Shown here: one piece after another, positions 10,839 to 28,639 of the stretch
How the letters are laid out: every line of letters starts with the position of its first letter
How positions within the stretch are numbered: the first letter of the stretch is position 1
Position numbers and translations under genes: made by a program
Source of the DNA: Polychytrium aggregatum
Lineage: Eukaryota; Chytridiomycota; Chytridiomycetes; Polychytriales
NCBI RefSeq assembly: GCF_025602895.1
Contig: NW_026516499.1
Span: 1-29,930 of the forward strand
Length of the DNA stretch: 29,930 nt
Reading direction: 5' to 3'
The notes under the pieces: model-generated
The model's database searches: none
Told to the model about the DNA's origin: nothing
Seen by the model: the letters and a program-made list of their open reading frames with translations, nothing else

Positions 10839-11048
10839 GCGTACCGTTGGCGCGAGCTTGCTTGTTGACGGACGATGGCCCAGGCCCTGCTCCAGGCTCC
10901 GGGCTCCGGGCTCCGGGCTCCGGGCTCCTATGGCTCGGGAAAGCAAGTGTCCATGGGGCCAAAGGCAACTGAGCGGATACAGGGTTTCCAAAATGAAATG
11001 GGGCATCCCTGTTTTGTGCATGGCTGTGTTTTTTCTGTGACCTGAATA
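10839..11048. repeat. Short intergenic spacer with a 7-bp tandem repeat
   Basis: Just after the SHANK-like stop, about six copies of a GCTCCGG unit lie at roughly 10890-10928. Nothing else is recognised before the Fanzor remnant. Confidence 0.7.
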
Positions 11049-11342
11049 CACCCACCCGCTCATTGCATTCATGGCCAAGCACAGCACCATCTTGATATCG
11101 AGAAACCACACTTTGTCCGGAGCTGTGCAAGCTGCCATACGCTGTGGGATCGAGGCATCAATGCCTCAAGGAACATGATCTCGGTATGCCAGTCGATCAT
11201 CGCCACAGGAGATCGACCGGGTGTATTCAAGACCATGCTTCCCAAGCCAACCAAAACCACTCGATTGCCACCCATGACGGGAAACAATCTCACGGCTTGC
11301 TCACTGGGGCCTACGGAAGTTCGGCAGGTTTCAGATATCTGA
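11046..11342 (+). pseudogene. Remnant of a Fanzor (TnpB-like) nuclease C-terminus
   Basis: The frame is open from just after a TGA (11043-11045) to the TGA at 11340-11342 and has no convincing start codon. It encodes HFVRSCASCHTLWDRGINAS followed by RNMISVCQSIIATGDRPGVF. This matches the end of Fanzor/TnpB RNA-guided nucleases: the second CxxC of the zinc finger, then W-(D/N)-R-D-(V/I)-N-A-(A/S)-R-N-(I/M) carrying the RuvC-III aspartate, then a GxRP tail. Here the aspartate of RDxNA is glycine (RGINA), and the rest of the protein (N-terminal, WED-like and RuvC-I/II parts) is absent. It is therefore a dead fragment. It lies between the converging ends of the SHANK-like and NAR1 genes. Confidence 0.75.
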
Positions 11343-11852
11343 AGCCAGGAAGGGAAGGTGTCCCGTTTCTTTCTGGTTTGACTGTAAACTACTTGGGTCC
11401 AATGATAATCTATTGGTGACGGCTCCAAATGCTCGGCGTTTCACAGGACATGAACATTGTGCAAGTGCAGCCGTGTGGAGCGCGATGGATGAAACAGAGC
11501 TTTGAGCGGGCTCGCTGACAGACGCCGATACTGAGAAACAGCCGCAGATGCAACAAAAACAGATGCGCACAGCGATCGCTGGGCAAATGACTAAGCAGGA
11601 CCAGATATGGCTGGGAGTGGAGTGTTGCACTGGAGACGGAATGTCCACGATACAGCAGCAAAGTGTGGACAAGGAGTTGCTCTTCGAGGCCGTTGACTTG
11701 CTCGTTAGTCTGCATGTGCGTCTTTGCGTGCTCTCTGATTTTCTGATTCGCTCGATGGCTCATATCCTTGGTCGATGGCATTCCAGAGGCCAAGCGATTC
11801 GAGAAGCTGATGTGGATGCGCTGATGGCTGGGTGGATCGCTGGAAGGCAGCA
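11343..11852. other. Intergenic spacer downstream of NAR1, no supported gene
   Basis: A 143-codon plus-strand frame starts at 11548 but runs across the NAR1 stop and last exon (11853-11958), so it is probably chance. No domain or repeat is recognised. Confidence 0.4.
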
Positions 11853-17993: not shown

Positions 17994-20184
17994 ATGGTCT
18001 CATTCAGAGCCGCTGCTGCCGTCTTTGCCTTTGCCGGTGCCGTCGCTGCCCAGTCCCACGCTGCCGGCGACTACCTCTGGCCCTACCCCGCCCAGGTCAC
18101 CGACAAGAAGGCCCTCATCAGCGCCCGTGGCTTCACTCTCGCTGACAACAGCCAGAACAACGAGAACGTTGTTGCTGCCTTTGGCCGTCTCCAGGCCTCG
18201 GCCCGCTCGCGCTTCTCTGCCTCCAAGGCCAAGAACTCGCTCAAGGTCACTGTCTCGATTGCCAAGGATGAGGGATTTGCCGCCAAGGACCTCGTCGGTG
18301 CCGATGAATCGTACACCCTCGATGTGAGCTCGAGCGGTGTCAACGTCAAGGGTGAGTTGTGTGCCACGGCGATGCACTCTGATCAGGATGGATGAGATGT
18401 GGCTCATGATCGATTGTCCTGCGATGCACGATCTGATTGTCCACGTCCTTGACCGCGGCCATGTCACGCTCACCATGATGTGTATGTCGCACTCACCGAC
18501 CTTGATACTGTCGCACTCACCGACCCTGATGTGTATGTCGCACTCACTGACCTTGATACTGTCCCATTCACTGTCCCTGCCATCAACTGCACAATCCCGC
18601 TCCCACTCCCACACAACAGCCAACACCCAGGTCGGCGCCATCTACGCCCTCCAGACCCTCTCCCAGCTCGTCACCAGCAGTGGTCAGGTCGTTGCTGCCA
18701 CCGTCAACGACGCTCCCGCCTATGCCTTCCGTGGTCTCATGCTCGACACTGCCCGCAACTTCTTCCCCGTTGCCGACATCAAGCGCATCATCGACGGTCT
18801 GGCCTACTCCAAGATCAACGTCTTCCACTGGCACATCTACGACTCCCAGTCGTTCCCCATCGACTGGCCCTCGTACCCCCAGCTCAAGGCCACGGCTTTC
18901 AAGGATGCCAACGGCAACCCCAAGGTCTACACCGAGCAGGATGTCCGTGACATCGTCCAGTATGCCTTCCAGCGCAACGTCCGTGTCATTCCCGAGTTCG
19001 AGGCCATCGGCCACAACGCCGTCTTCGCCGCTGCCAATCCTTCCTTCGTTGTGGGTCTCAACCACGCTCCCTGGGATGGACGCAACGGCGATGCCAACAA
19101 TGTTTCTACCGGTGCCGTCATGTGGGGCACCCAATGGTGCAACCAGCCTCCTTGCGGCCAGATCGATCTGACCAACCAGGCTGCTCTCGAATTCTTCAAC
19201 CAGCTTGTTGCTGAGGTTGGTGCCTGGTTCGAGGACCCCATTGTTCACTTTGGCCACGATGAGTTCAACTACCGTGTCTATGGCACCACTCCCGACAGCT
19301 GGGACTCTGTTGATGTCAATGGTATCTACGAGGTCATGGCTCAGGCCGAGCCCAAGCTCCTCCAGATCGCCGAGACAAACAACAAGCTCTACGGTGCCTG
19401 GGACGACATTGTCACCGACTTCAACGTCCAGAACATCATCCCCAAGGACACCTACATCTGGAACTGGCAGGGCGACAACTCGGCCATCCAGAACTTTGCC
19501 GACCAGGGCTTCACCAACATCATCGCCTCTCCTTCCAGCGTTTACTACCTCGACTGTTCTCCCACGGCTCGCTGGTGCACGAGCACTTTTGAGCGTACCG
19601 TTCCTGACAGTGCCCTCAATCTCCCAGGCTATGCCACCTTTCCCGGCCAGTGGCACAACTGGACGTTCATCTACAACTACGACACCACCGCCGGCTTGAC
19701 CGACTCTGCCAAGAAGGCCGTCATTGGCGGTTCGGTTGCGCTGTGGACCGAGACCATCAAGCGCCACAACCTCGATCGCTACGTCTTCCCCCGTACCTCT
19801 GTGTTCGCCGAGCGCTACTGGTCTGGCCATGCAGCTCCTGCTTACGATGCCGTCAAGACCGCTGCTCGTCTCGAACGTTTCCGCACCACCCTCATCAACG
19901 AGCTCCAGATCGCCGCTGCCGATCTCTCTTACCTCGGTAACCAGGAGGGCACCGTCTTCCGTACTGAGTGGTGTGATGCCAACCTTGCCACTCCCGGCCA
20001 GAAGACTCACGAGTGCTGCTTCCCTGGCGAGCCCCTCACCGGCCACAACGGCTCTCCTCTCAACACCACCGTTGGTGCTCACTTCCCCACCGGCGACGAG
20101 GCCGACTATTGCAAGATCGCCGCCTCCTACAACACCAACTCGTTCACCCACGTTGTCCCCAAGCCCACTCCCTATCCCTACTAG
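17994..20184 (+). CDS. Secreted GH20 beta-N-acetylhexosaminidase
   Basis: Two exons, 17994-18351 and 18620-20184, join in phase 1 (intron 18352-18619, GTGAGT..CAACAG) to give 640 aa. The enzyme removes terminal N-acetylhexosamine from chitin oligomers and glycans. Residues 1-20 form a signal peptide (MVSFRAAAAVFAFAGAVAAQ). Residues to ~150 are the non-catalytic GH20b domain, ending NTQVGAIYALQTLSQL. The (beta/alpha)8 catalytic domain begins FRGLMLDTARNFFPVADIKR and INVFHWHIYDSQSFPIDWP. The catalytic Asp-Glu pair is D333-E334 in HFGHDEFNYR, where most family members have GGDE. VALWTETI and FAERYWSG near the end are also typical. A ~100-residue Cys-containing C-terminus follows. Several Asn-X-Ser/Thr sites fit secretion. 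It probably takes part in wall remodelling or extracellular chitin digestion. Codon use is strongly C-biased, as in highly expressed genes. Confidence 0.95.
18476..18577. repeat. 51-bp imperfect tandem repeat in the hexosaminidase intron
   Basis: A GATGTGTATGTCGCACTCAC block recurs 51 bp later, and within each unit CACTCACCGACC(T/C)TGAT(A)CTGTC-like subunits of about 24-27 bp alternate. Roughly two units occupy most of the middle of the 268-bp intron. Confidence 0.85.
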
Positions 20185-20778: not shown

Positions 20779-20840
20779 GAGGGGCTTTCGTTCGCACTGC
20801 AACACCGTCGCCCATCCCATCGCTCAACTCATCGCATACG

Positions 20841-23800
20841 ATGTCATCTGCCGCTGGTAGCGAGCCGTTCCAGTGCCCCACGCACGGGCCCAAGCATGCC
20901 TTCTTCCTCTCGCATCGGCGCTCATCCGACGAGCAGATTGCCCGAGACCTCAAGCGCCTCCTGGCTTCGGTCGGCCAGCGTCGCCATGGCGAGCCCATCT
21001 CGGTCTTTCTCGACTCGGACTGTCTCGACGGAACAGCTGGCGTGTCCACCGATGCTCTTCCCGGCAGCGCCGTTGCCGTCCTGCTCGTCAGCAAGTCGTC
21101 CATGAACGGCATGAAGGAACTCGCCGACCAGGGCGAGCCCGACAGCGTCGTCGATGAAATCAGGACAGCCCTGGATCTCAAGGATGCCAAGCCAGACCTG
21201 CCTGTCCTGCCGCTGTGCATTGCGACTCTGGAGGATGTGGGTATCCATCTGGACGACCTGGCATCATGCTATCATCGGACATGATCTGATATGCAGGGCC
21301 CATATCGGATGCCACTCGCTCACTCACTCACTCACTCACTCACTCACTCACTCACTCACTCACTCACTCACTCACTCACTCACTCACTCACTCGCTCGCT
21401 CTCGCAGGGTGGCTACATTGACTTCAAGCCGTATATGATGTCCTTCCCCAGCGACCCCAAGTTTGCCTCGCTCAAGCACACCATCGACCGCATGAACCAG
21501 ATCCAGATGTACGGCTTCCGCCCCGACCAGCCCCACAAGCGTCTCTACCGTCTGCTCACCCTCTTCAGCCCCATCTTCTCCAACCCCGGTCTCCGCGACG
21601 CCATCCCCACAAAGTACTATGTCGACAACCTGTTCCTCGGCGACATGGGCCATCTGGACTCGCTCCTTCGTCAGGTCACCCTGACTGGTCGCGCCGTCGT
21701 CTCGGGCATGGGCGGCATGGGCAAGTCCGTCCTGGCTCGCCAGTTCCTCCAGTTCATGATGGGCACTCTTGCCGTCAGCAACGACGGCGAACTCGACGGC
21801 TTCAAGCTCGAAACTGTCGGCATCAAGCCGCAGTACAGCCGCATCTACTGGGTCAACTGCGCGACCGAATCGACGGCCCTCGACAGCCTGGTCGACATCT
21901 TTCCGCACATCAAGCCCGGCGAGATCAAGCAGCATGCCTCTCGGATCCTCTCCCAGAGCCGCGAGTATCTCCTGGTCTTCGACAACGTGGACGATATGGC
22001 CGTGGTCGACTCGGTGTTTGAGCACTCTGTCGCGGCCGGATTCAGCGGCGACGTCGTTGTGACGACCCGGTTGTCGGCTCTCGACGAAGGACCCTTCCTC
22101 ACGGCCCTCGGGGCCAAGCTTGACGACTTCCAGCAGGCTCCACTCCGCCTCGAGTCGTGGAAGAACGAGACAGCCTTTGACTACATCCTGGCGACATCGC
22201 CAATGATTGCCGTGAAGGTGGGCACCGACCAGGACCGAGCAACGCTCCGAAAGCTCATGGACCGGATCAACGGATATCCCCTCGTGATCCAGACGGTGCG
22301 GATCTATGCCGAATGCAACGACACGCCGATCGACGAGATCGAGGCGCAGTTTGCCCAGGCACTCGAGGAGCAGGATGGCGAAGACGAGACCCGGTCGTCG
22401 CTCAAGGTGATCGTGGATCTGTCGATGAGCACGCTGCTGAAGAAGGGTGCAGTGGGAGTCGAGGCATGTCGGCTGTTTGGGGCGATCAGCCTGCTGGCGC
22501 CAGACGACATTCCTCTCGAGCTGATCACAGCGATTGCGCAGAAGATGGAGCTCTCGGCCGATGGTGAGTGAGTGACGGCAGAGTTGTGCGAGGGGTGTGG
22601 GCGAATATGCTTGACGGCGTGGATGAATGGCAAGCGAATGCCCAAGCGATGAGTAATTGGCGATGAATGCACAAACACACGAATGACTGATGGTGATTGA
22701 CGAACCATATCTCTGTCCAGCTGCCCATCTCGTCAAAATGGTGTGCGAGAGTGGTCTGCTCCGGCCCGGGCCCGACGAGCAGTACTACACGCACTCGCTG
22801 ACGCAGAGAGTCGCCCACGAGTGGGTCGTCGAACATGGCGAGCTCAACAGCGACCGGATCGAAGATGCCACTGGCGAAGCGCTCCTAGATAGGATCAAGA
22901 TTCCATGCAATCGCAAGGACTTGGAGCTTGGTCGCCACCTCGACCTATATGCCCGCAACACTGTTCCCGACATCCTCACCAAGAGACTCCACTTTGAGGT
23001 CCTCACCCGCATGGGTCGCGTCACCGAGTCCAGAGGCGCCTATCGGGAAGCAGAGAGCATCTTCACGTTGCTGTTGCCAAAGATCATTGCTTTCCACGGC
23101 ACACGACATCATAGCGATGTCGCCGCCAATATGAGCAACATGGCCGTCCTCTATTCTGCGCTGGGACGCCACGAGGATGCACTCAAGTACTTTGAGGAGG
23201 CGATAGACCTTCTTTCCAACCTGTTTGGAACCCGGCGAAACCTTGCGGTCGCCCGGATTATCGGCAATGCCGGTGATTCCCTCAGAAACCTGGGGCGCCT
23301 CCCCGAAGCGGCAGCGCACATGCAAGAATCGCTCGATATCATGATCGAGAGTATTGGAACCCGCGAGCATCCTCTTGTTGCCACGACGCTCAACGGCCTG
23401 GCAGGTATCTTGCAAGACCAAGGCCGTTTCAAGGAGAGTTTTGAGCTCTATCAAGAGGCGTATGATCTCATGATCAGGTTTCCAGAGACCAGCAGCGACA
23501 TTACCATTGGGACCGTGCTCTCCAACATGGGATCAGCCGCCCTGAAAGTAACTCGCTACCAGGTGGCACTCGAGTATCTTCAACAGGCGCTCGATATCCG
23601 CCTCAGGGTGTTTGGAACACGCGAGCATCTCGATATCGCCACGACCCTTGGGGAACTCGGCATCGTAGCCTTGCATCTTGGGCAATACGAGAGCGCAGCC
23701 AATTATCTCAAAGAGTCGCTTGACATTACCGTCAGGAGCGTCGGGACAAGGGAGCACTCCGACGTTGCCACGGCCTTGACCAACCTCGGCACCCTTGCAA

Positions 23801-25473
23801 GCTGTCAGGGTCTTACCGCACAATCGCTTGCCCTGCACATGGAAGCACTGACCATCTTTCGAAAGGTCTTTCAAAACAAGCCCCATCCCCTCATCATCAC
23901 GGCCCTCTGCAACATTGGCGATGTTTCCAAGTCCCAAGACGATCCCGTCGGCGCCTTGTCACGGTATTTCGAAGCCATGGAGATGGCAGCGAGTGTATAC
24001 AGCACCCGCGACCACCCCAAGATCGCCTCGATTCTGGTCAGGATGGCATCGATTGTTGGCGATATGAATATGTTTGATCAAGCCCGCGGCTTCTACCTGC
24101 AAGCCCTCGACATCTATGTCAAGGTGTATGGGACTCGAGAGCATGAGGATGTCGCTCTCTTGCTCAACAACCTGGGGTGTGATGCCCGCGTCGAGGGAAA
24201 GCTCGATCAAGCAATGGAGTACCTGCGGGAAGCGCTCGATCTGCGTATCAAGATCTTTGGCACCAAGCTGAACCCCGATGTTGCCGAGTCGATCAATAAC
24301 ATTGCGGCAGTTGAATGGAACCGTGGTCACAGCGACGAAGCCATTGCACACCTTGGGGAAGCCCGTGACATTCTGATCACGGTGCACGGCTCCAAGCAGC
24401 ATCCAAAAGTTGCCAGGACAATCATGAATATGGCCGAGATCTACCGCAGCCAGAGCCGCTACCGAGAATCCACTGCTGCTTTCCGGGAAGTCATTGAGAT
24501 ACAGATGCAGATCGATGAGAACCGAAATCATCGCAACGTTGTGCGCTCTCTTGACAGTATTGCTGAGATGGCTGAAGATCTGGACGATGTCGACGAGGCT
24601 CTGGAGGCGCTCCAAGAGGTCTTGGTCATCCGCAAGTCAAACGGCGATGAGGCCGCCACGATGAAGCTGCTTCACACAATGGCCAAACTGGCAGGCGAAC
24701 ACAGCCGCTTTGTTCAGGCTCAGACATATAACAGCGACTTGCTGGAACTGGCCGTCAGGCTGCTTGGCACCAGAGAACACCAGCTAGTCGCAGAGACACT
24801 CAACAATATCGGCCTGGCTTTGTCTGCACAGTCCTCCTTTGAAGAAGCCGTGAAGTATCATCTCGAGGCGCTCGATATCGCCCTTCGACTGCACAAGTCC
24901 CGCGAACACGTTGACGTTGCGAGCATATTAGTCAACCTTGGCAATGCCGAACACGGCTGCGGGCGCTTGGAAGAGGCCCAGCAGAGGTACCAGGAGGCCC
25001 TCGATATATTCTCCAAGGTCCTGGATAGTACGGATCACCCTATATTTGCTATGGTCGGAGAGTGTATGAAACAGGTTGAAGAGGACAAGGCCATGCAACT
25101 GGCCATGCACGATGTCGCCAAAGTTGATTGCGACGGTCAAGGAATGGACGGTGCTGCCGGGGACCCAAATGTAGTTGCGCCAGCGAAACAACATCAAGCA
25201 GACGACTCGTGCGCATCATTCGTGATTCCTGCTGAGCACGACAACGGGATTGGAGCCACTGATGAGAATGAGGAAGAGATCGAGAAAACAATGCCAAAAG
25301 ATACTGGAGATGCAAACGGTGTCGAGGCCGATGAGAAAGTAAGAGCACAGGAGCCAGTGTCTGATTACAATGCCAACGAGTCAGCTGCCAAGAGATCGAG
25401 GGCGGAATCCGTGGTTGAGGATGTCGGGGTAGCGACAACGAGGGTCTGCCAGATCGGCTGCGTTGTAATGTAG
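20841..25473 (+). CDS. TIR/NB-ARC/TPR receptor-like STAND protein with C-terminal CaaX box
   Basis: Three exons, 20841-21236, 21408-22563 and 22721-25473, give 4305 nt and 1434 aa with consistent phases. Residues ~18-150 look like a TIR-type domain (KHAFFLSHRRSSDEQIA, VFLDSDCLDGT, SAVAVLLVSKSSM); E in VVDEI is a candidate NAD-hydrolase glutamate. An NB-ARC ATPase follows: P-loop GMGGMGKS (232-239), Walker B YLLVFDNVDD (319-328), VVVTTR (348-353) and a helical/winged-helix part to ~600. About 15 kinesin-light-chain-type TPRs of ~42 residues (GTREHxDVAxxLxNLG pattern) span ~610-1305. The ~125-residue acidic tail ends CVVM, a CaaX motif with Met last, which predicts farnesylation. STAND proteins oligomerise when the repeats sense a ligand; signalling through TIR is inferred. 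The tail also has AAKRSR. Domain calls are strong; an immune or allorecognition role is inference. Confidence 0.92.
21321..21392. repeat. (CACT)18 microsatellite in intron 1 of the receptor gene
   Basis: An uninterrupted run of 18 CACT units fills nearly half of the 171-bp intron (21237-21407, GTGGGT..TCGCAG) and lies 15 bp from the acceptor site. Confidence 0.97.
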
Positions 25474-26765: not shown

Positions 26766-28298
26766 CTAGTCGGCGGACTTTTGGAACCAGACGAAGGCGG
26801 TGTCGATGTTCTTGGGGACACCATAGCCGAACTGGTAACACTCGCCAAGAAAAAATTGTCCGTATCGATTTCCCTGCTCGGCTGATTTGCGATACCACTT
26901 GGCTGCTTTGGTGTAGTCCTCGGTGACTCCAATTCCATAATAGTAGCAAAAACCAACCATATTCTGCCCATATGAGTTGTCTTGGTTGGCCGACTTGCAG
27001 AACCACTCGAATGACTTCTTGTGGTCCTGCGATACACCCACACCCCAGTAGCAGCACTCTCCGATCCAATATTGACTGTCGCTGCGGCCTTCGTTGGCGA
27101 GTTGCTCAAAGTTACCGGCTGCCTTCTTCTGGTCCTTGGTGGTTCCGAATCCATAGTACAGACACACAGTCATGAGGTGTCGACACAACCAGTCGTGGTC
27201 CGATCCCAGCCGGCAGAGATTGAAGAATTTGCGGGCTGCGTGGGAGTTGGAGTCGGCACGCGTCCCAAAGAACTTTGTAAGACACTTGTCCTCACCCAGC
27301 TTGAACTCATCCGATTTGTTATCGCGGATGATCTTTGTACCCTTCTGCTTGTTGCGCATGGTGCCCCGGCCAAGGTAGTGCATCCATCCGACCATGTGGG
27401 TGGCGATGGGTTTGATGATTGGGTGGGTGGATTGAACGCTGACCTCCTGCCAATGGTTAAAGGCATCGACATCGCAATGTTCGACACCATGGCTGATCAG
27501 CGAAAGCCAGCCACGGAGGAACACAATGTGGAAGCGGCCGTCTTCGCTGCCCTGGTCTGCAGCCTTGGAATACCACTCGATGGCAGTGTCATAGTCTTGA
27601 TCGACACCTTCGCCAATCTCGTAGCAACCACCGAGGGTTATTTGGGCCTGAGGGATTCCGCGTTCTGCAAGATCACGATACAGTTCGGCAGCCTTGGTGA
27701 AATTTCGGTTGACACCAATGCCATCGTGATAGAAGTCAGCCAGGTGGAACATTGCCATCGTGTGGTGTGCGTTGGCGGCATTCTCCAGATGGCGGAAGAT
27801 TCGCTGGCGGATAGCTTGCTCCTTGTGCTTGTCCATATACCGCTGGCGAGCGACATCGACTTGAAGGATTCTTGCCAAGAAATACGATGCGGCAGCGTTG
27901 CCTTTGTCGGCTTGGGCAACGAGCCAGGATCGTTCAGTTGTCTCTTGATTCTTGCGGTGCAGGGAGAGAGTGATCTGGTCACTGGGTGTGAGGCCGATCC
28001 GCAGCGATCCGTCTGGACGACACAGTCCTTCCTTCCGACACCAGTGATGGAAGCGAGCTATCCTGAAGCTCAGAAGGGGACGGGCACGCCTGCACACTCG
28101 GAGGAGGGTCTTGATCGTGTTCAGGTCGAGGGCAAGCCAGAAACTCTCATTGCAGCATATGATGGTGAAAATGTCTGGGTTGTGTTCGAGCGAGAGTTGG
28201 GTGATATCAGGCATCGACGAGGCTGCTCTGTCTTCAGCTTGGGTTTGCTGAGTGGCTGATGATGCTGTGGTTGAAGCAGGCTCGTTCATGCTGGCCAT
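26766..28298 (-). CDS. Sel1-like repeat protein, truncated by a stop in its last repeat
   Basis: A single exon of 510 aa from the ATG at 28298 (GTCAACATGGCC, good context). The frame stays open upstream to 28607, but that extension has no family features. Residues ~1-35 are Ser/Thr/Ala-rich. Residues ~35-95 (NPDIFTIICCNESFWLAL, TIKTLLRVCRRARPLLSF) resemble an F-box-like or leader helical region. From ~125 to the end there are roughly eight Sel1-like helical repeats: YHDGIGVNRNFTKAAELYRD, CYEIGEGVDQDYDTAIEWYS, CYYYGIGVTEDYTKAAKWYR, CYQFGYGVPKNIDTAFVWFQ. Such solenoids act as adaptor scaffolds. Translation stops at KSAD-TAG, but the same frame continues GNNVAINQLKQLGKWEGFD, the normal end of the repeat array. 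A Gln codon (CAG) has therefore probably become TAG. A decayed relative lies at 1036-1423 on the other strand. Confidence 0.88.
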   Translation of the reverse strand: MASMNEPASTTASSATQQTQAEDRAASSMPDITQLSLEHNPDIFTIICCNESFWLALDLNTIKTLLRVCRRARPLLSFRIARFHHWCRKEGLCRPDGSLRIGLTPSDQITLSLHRKNQETTERSWLVAQADKGNAAASYFLARILQVDVARQRYMDKHKEQAIRQRIFRHLENAANAHHTMAMFHLADFYHDGIGVNRNFTKAAELYRDLAERGIPQAQITLGGCYEIGEGVDQDYDTAIEWYSKAADQGSEDGRFHIVFLRGWLSLISHGVEHCDVDAFNHWQEVSVQSTHPIIKPIATHMVGWMHYLGRGTMRNKQKGTKIIRDNKSDEFKLGEDKCLTKFFGTRADSNSHAARKFFNLCRLGSDHDWLCRHLMTVCLYYGFGTTKDQKKAAGNFEQLANEGRSDSQYWIGECCYWGVGVSQDHKKSFEWFCKSANQDNSYGQNMVGFCYYYGIGVTEDYTKAAKWYRKSAEQGNRYGQFFLGECYQFGYGVPKNIDTAFVWFQKSAD

Positions 28299-28639
28299 GT
28301 TGACGGAGACTGGATGGAGACAAGTGGTGACGGAGCTGGACAGGAGACAGTGAGGGAATTTGTGGCGAAGCAAACCAAACACTGGCCATCTAACACACAC
28401 ACACAAGCCTGGCTCGATCCGATGGTTTGCTGGCTGGACTCGCTGTTGTACAAGTACTGCCACATACACTGCCACATACATAAAATCGATCATGGAATCG
28501 AACATCGTATCGAGTCCTGCATTCTCGCCAAGGCAAGATGTAATAGCCATTCCAACCAATTCCACATCGACACCGACACTATGGCCCCAACCTGCTGCAC
28601 CAAGCACCGCCAGTTTGGGTCCAAGGGGTGTTTGCGAGG
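28299..28639. other. Intergenic spacer upstream of the Sel1 gene
   Basis: About 340 bp that should contain the Sel1 gene promoter (minus strand). It shows a short CA run near 28395-28404 and a CACATACACTGCCACATACA duplication near 28462-28480. No gene is supported. Confidence 0.5.

Follow-up and report, generated by a model that had tools for sequence, protein, structure and literature searches.

A TIR-NB-ARC-TPR protein ending in a CaaX box, and a fungal family in which such endings recur but are optional

We have analysed a window of 29,930 bp, which is the whole of contig C220 in a 64.7-Mb assembly of 418 contigs, and describe a gene on its + strand (20841-25473). Its 1,434-residue product begins with a TIR domain, continues with an NB-ARC ATPase and some 15 TPRs of the 43-residue kind, and closes with an acidic tail of 145 residues, after which CVVM forms the C-terminus. 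A preliminary description had presented this protein as a single receptor with an unusual prenylation signal. The observation is real and larger than stated: it concerns a whole family with a recurring prenylation box, not one odd receptor.

The gene was read as three inferred exons joining to 1,434 codons plus a stop, with splicing and gene ends taken from the DNA frames rather than from transcripts. Exon 1 (20841..21236, residues 1-132; reading frames and joined translation) encodes most of the TIR domain. Exon 2 (21408..22563; frames and Pfam) encodes the end of the TIR domain, the NB-ARC and the start of the winged helix, and exon 3 (22721..25473; joined translation and Pfam) encodes the rest of the winged helix, the TPR array, the tail and the stop. 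Intron 1 (21237..21407, 171 nt, donor GTGGGT, acceptor CAG) and intron 2 (22564..22720, 157 nt, GTGAGT...CAG) were inferred from the frames. The outer limits given by the preliminary description were right, but it omitted the two introns that interrupt the frame. An in-frame stop follows residue 147, and a true frame break at this place was rejected because the stop lies inside inferred intron 1 and one-frame paralogues cross the junction. Intron 1 is absent from most paralogues, whose TIR-NB-ARC forms a single frame and continues over the junction in the way expected from the splice; the paralogue at C408:282k carries a comparable intron sequence in the corresponding position. Within intron 1, about 22 copies of CACT form a tandem array (21313..21401) whose length varies among the near-identical gene copies of the window, C57, C40 and C112; the C408:282k intron also holds a related array. 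The sequence of intron 2 is nearly identical in the C57 and C112 copies.

The features of an NLR (STAND) protein, an NB-ARC with Walker A and B motifs and a C-terminal repeat array, are present. The NB-ARC lies narrowly above the Pfam cut-off (25.5 vs 23.5 bits), and both motifs named in the preliminary description were located: the Walker A GMGGMGKS at residues 232-239 (21705..21728, +) and the Walker B YLLVFDNVDD at residues 319-328 (21966..21995, +). THSL at residue 541, at the winged helix end in exon 3, is presumably the MHD-like position. The TPR array spans residues 644-1285 (23098..25023, +; Pfam and a count in the 43-residue register), with a TPR_12 match at E = 2.2e-89. It holds 14 in-register units of 43 residues plus an irregular one at 1160-1199 judged by eye, in agreement with the 15 or so repeats claimed earlier. 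The tail (residues 1286-1430; 25024..25458, +) is acidic, with 32 Asp and Glu against 12 Lys and Arg among the last 149 residues (1286 onwards). The joined product ends in RVCQIGCVVM, so that the CVVM box reported before stands at residues 1431-1434 (25459..25470, +). The predicted model of the TIR-NB-ARC part of a paralogue matches RPP1 (3.0e-8), Apaf-1 and CED-4.

The genome looks like that of a zoosporic fungus, since it matches the families chitin synthase 1 (n=26), Zn_clus (n=27) and radial-spoke protein (n=8). An oomycete check with elicitin carries no weight, since none of the control genomes gave a match. Contig C40 is 99% identical to the window over the 9.3 kb preceding the gene and 99.4-99.8% identical through the gene, which is most simply explained by their being haplotypes of the same locus. 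A genome search with the first 559 residues returned at least 99 matches, counts of large families being lower bounds. NB-ARC places related to the window gene number at least 74, some 61 of which are also matched in the TIR part (a hand count with haplotype copies not collapsed). As for the surroundings of the gene, a GH20 glycosyl hydrolase gene lies just upstream (18337-20184; Pfam 5.4e-75), with C365, C212 and C418 carrying relatives that are 90-94% identical in DNA, and a Sel1-repeat protein is encoded at 26769-28607 on the - strand (Pfam 5e-56). An interspersed repeat of about 390 bp at 11000-11390 has more than 30 matches among those listed, at 85-92% identity and on many contigs. An Rfam search found no RNA.

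The family members share DNA in a characteristic way. The window has a TIR-NB-ARC cassette (20813..22880, +) in common with C57 (20813-22880) and C112 (20815-22852), at 96.3% and 97.0% identity, respectively, introns included. It begins 26-28 bases ahead of the start codon and extends about 2,010-2,040 bases beyond it, and the identity ends inside exon 3. Outside the cassette, the upstream DNA, the TPRs and the tails give no DNA alignment, apart from one 71-base piece with C57. When compared as protein, the exon 3 parts are 41% (C57) and 33% (C112) identical to the window, so the TPRs are still related, if distantly. The identity within the introns points to recent copying and not to purifying selection. 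An open frame adjoining the C57 copy (L031, C57:102900-104600) resembles by eye what we take to be a DDE transposase.

The same pattern was found more widely. Among 33 sequences, haplotype copies included, a common piece of 600 bases or more, at an identity of 90% or higher, is found in 145 of the 528 possible pairs. The piece is cassette-bounded in 118 of the 145, starting within 60 bases of the start codon and ending 1,507-2,160 bases after it; seven pairs are haplotype-like over their whole length, and 20 fall outside the rule. Four of these exceptions (C112 paired with the window, with C40 and with C57, and C40 paired with C57) have a piece that is truncated or divided around intron 1, and the other 16 share upstream DNA, three of them upstream DNA only and three (among C358:275k, C358:351k and C361) the TPR part as well. 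The high identity is partly a matter of row choice, because the loci were picked by similarity in the cassette itself, but the common ends are unaffected by this. Three loci with one cassette end in three ways, CVVM in the window, CVVS in C112 and SGEN without a CaaX in C57. On the basis of these endings, the candidate anchor goes with the sensor end rather than with the switch.

Such a family, with many copies, a like effector part and divergent sensors, resembles recognition families known in general, and by this analogy an immune or self/non-self role may be supposed. A non-immune role of the family, in development or in zoospore or symbiont signalling, is the alternative that survives best, and we hold it to be doubtful rather than remote. 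It finds support in the available part of a review, according to which most fungal NLRs lie outside allorecognition (PMC12881547), and the resemblance to recognition families speaks, indirectly, against it.

For the N-terminal domain, on the one hand, the window protein by itself gave no match to TIR or TIR_2 at E<=1, so that the profile search which found NB-ARC and TPR_12 did not return the third domain; the Pfam family TIR found nothing in the genome of the window at E<=0.001, and a single-sequence search of the PDB with the TIR part gave five weak matches and no clear TIR. On the other hand, TIR_2 matches 16 of the 22 rows of the family alignment A2, from which divergent rows were left out and in which row L028 extends a few residues into the intron. 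With the 22-row family profile, SARM1 is the top match among solved structures (E 8.2e-6). An AlphaFold2 model of exon 1 (pLDDT 79.7) has TIR neighbours in the PDB, and the Foldseek matches of this model are TIRs, yet none passes E 0.001. The idea that the TIR label was a misreading is rejected by the family profile and the predicted fold. We therefore assign the N-terminal domain as a TIR, as the preliminary description did, on the grounds of profile and model; it had named the lack of a TIR fold as grounds for refutation, and the predicted structure adopts that fold. The same description had invoked the plan of plant and bacterial immune receptors. The TIR-NB-ARC order agrees with this, but among solved structures the TIR profile is nearest to SARM1 and not to plant receptors.

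In the alignment of the family profile with the SARM1 TIR, Glu106 of the window protein (codon 21156..21158, +) aligns with the catalytic Glu of SARM1, which we take to be the Glu counted as residue 642 of chain 7knq_A. With haplotype copies counted separately, 38 of the 41 family rows have a Glu at this position. These observations suggest that the TIR domain may hydrolyse NAD+. We regard it as unlikely that it is a scaffold for assembly which recruits other TIR or downstream proteins: the adaptor TIRs of MyD88 and TRIF rank level with SARM1 in structural re-alignment and three divergent paralogues lack the Glu, whereas the conservation of Glu106 and the nearness of the sequence profile to the NADase SARM1 among solved structures point to an enzyme. 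The three paralogues (L079 at C46:288k, L080 at C397:360k and L081 on C241) have neither the catalytic Glu nor the Ser of the first strand, and because of this their domains at the TIR position may be non-enzymatic partners.

A canonical CaaX ends eight of 36 distinct paralogue C-termini read from the genome DNA: CVVM in the window and, identically, in the other haplotype (C40), CVVS at C112:1094k, CLII at C1:60k, CFII on C13, CSVM on C179, CLIM on C68, CLLM on C364 and CVVA on C4. The 36 tails are one per distinct tail, with C40 standing for the window; they cover part of the family and paralogues of the same genome only, include the tail of C382, whose end is uncertain, and are not independent of one another where related. 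C28, C390, C9 and C363 were left out as having the same or nearly the same tails as C358:178k, C408:102k, C79 and C68, respectively, and counting these four as well gives 9 of 40; the tails of C57:649k and C46:285k lie outside the 36. Those of C13, C179, C68, C364 and C112:1094k were tied to their genes by position and open-frame length, and the 559-residue query is matched by C4 only from residue 126 and by C364 from residue 34. Within these tails, 4 of 2,736 internal positions show the pattern. A Cys stands at -4 in nine of the 36, compared with 27 of 2,844 at other offsets in the last 80 residues; the ninth, C408:282k, has the non-canonical end CRNM.

Pairwise scoring divides the eight CaaX-ended tails into about five types. 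The CLIM, CLLM and CFII tails are related, as are those of CLII and CSVM, and CVVM, CVVS and CVVA stand apart, with one weak pair between CVVS and CLII (z 3.9). In all three tails of the first group, the stretch from FSH to the Cys is 12 residues long with divergent letters. The tails of C358:178k and C223:1401k are related to this group and that of C408:102k to the CLII/CSVM group, and none of them has the box; the ends of such related tails are SRIM, SDSSS and SKK. Because the 12-residue spacing is kept while the letters differ, and related tails do without the box, the pattern fits a motif that is selected but dispensable. The 28 tails without a canonical CaaX include that of C57, whose TIR-NB-ARC DNA is 96% identical to the window, and since most tails are of this kind an anchor would be unneeded for the function of the family. 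Judged by these tails, the CaaX is a recurrent yet optional end. On conservation of the box in homologues, which the preliminary description had made a test, the tails are divided: it recurs among paralogues of the same genome far above its internal rate, but in a minority of distinct tails; a lack of any CaaX among homologues does not apply to these paralogues. The suggestion of a nearby Cys for palmitoylation gained no support: Cys1427 (25447..25449, +) is the candidate second lipidation site, and none of the other 35 tails has a Cys at its offset.

The counts reject CVVM as a lone chance ending (8/36 tails vs 4/2,736 internal positions). It is also improbable that this NLR is soluble, with CVVM a chance ending and the CaaX-like ends of the family coincidences or relics: the box is missing from 28 of 36 tails, related tails end without it, and a search with the C-terminal 189 residues found the CVVM tail covered, among the matches listed, by the window locus and its C40 haplotype only, but the excess of Cys at -4 and of the canonical motif at the very end, and the keeping of the box in two tail groups although the linker differs, argue against coincidence.

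Taking these results together, we think it rather probable that the window protein is a member of a modular NLR (STAND) family in which a TIR NADase switch is shared, the TPR sensors vary and some members are lipid-anchored, and in which copying spreads the cassette from locus to locus. In the resting state, ADP would be bound by the NB-ARC/winged-helix switch, with the TPR array as the sensor. A ligand or modified self on the TPRs would lead to nucleotide exchange in the NB-ARC and to oligomerisation, and the oligomer would gather the TIR domains, so that Glu106 could serve to cleave NAD+, in the manner of SARM1 and the TIR receptors of plants, with a signal or the death of the cell as the outcome. 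In the window protein and some relatives, the CaaX of the flexible tail may be modified by farnesyl- or geranylgeranyl-transferase, which would tether the sensor end to a membrane. An X of Met, Ser or Ala suits farnesyltransferase, and Ile suits geranylgeranyltransferase I. The genome has 12 matches to prenyltransferase-alpha repeats, 10 of them above the cut-off; four matches to the ICMT family say little, because five of the 14 control genomes, some of them bacterial, also match this family. With near-constant copies of the cassette at different loci and a diversity of sensors and ends, one output could serve many inputs and locations. More tentatively, and at somewhat less than even odds, lipid-anchored NLRs may have evolved in this fungal lineage by spreading a SARM1-like TIR-NB-ARC cassette among loci that differ in upstream DNA, TPR sensors and tails; the box would have arisen several times, on tails of unrelated kinds, and the one switch would be deployed in soluble, farnesylated and geranylgeranylated forms to watch different membranes.

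For many NLRs, being placed at a membrane determines their capabilities. A near-constant switch with a varied sensor and end is a natural experiment on the coupling of location and sensing. The family also brings together a SARM1-like TIR, an NB-ARC and TPRs in a fungus that has flagellar genes and stands close to the chytrids, a group for which the available part of a 2014 survey gives no NLRs (PMC4986451). The domain plan is already known and TIR NLRs in chytrids have been reported in passing; the literature searched yielded no report of the recurring CaaX ends. By title, no C-terminal prenyl anchor on a fungal NLR appeared in that literature, searched for NLR or NB-ARC with CaaX, prenylation or farnesyl and with most subscription papers outside its coverage, and the word 'prenyl' is absent from the fungal NLR papers checked, including the available text of PMC4986451, PMC12881547 and PMC10197012, as it is from the available text of PMC12856790 on plant TNPs.

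As far as the accessible parts of the sources go, fungal NLRs are built from an N-terminal effector, repeats and a switch of the NB-ARC or NACHT type, and among them HNWD (HNWD/HET-E) has a TIR-related HET domain and PLP-1 an NB-ARC with TPR (PMC12881547, PMC4986451); TIR and HET domains in fungal NLRs have been reviewed (PMC12881547, PMC10197012), and TIRs in fungi are noted only as occurring (PMC7075850). The window protein shares the switch, the repeats and the N-terminal effector with these NLRs, but its family differs in that the TIR is SARM1-like and the fungus has flagellar genes. Plant TNPs are described in the available part of PMC12856790 as TIR-NB-ARC-TPR proteins originating in land plants, one of which is reported to cause cell death that depends on the catalytic Glu. 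The order of modules is the same as in the window protein, but the likeness is by description only, and the fungal TIR profile is nearest to SARM1 among solved structures. The SARM1 TIR is the best sequence-profile match of the fungal TIR family, with the Glu aligned. SARM1 itself has the order ARM-SAM-TIR and no NB-ARC. CaaX proteins of the Ras and Rho type have Cys-aliphatic-aliphatic-X at the very end, as the window protein does, but they are small GTPases, whereas the window protein is a 1,434-residue receptor with a long acidic tail.
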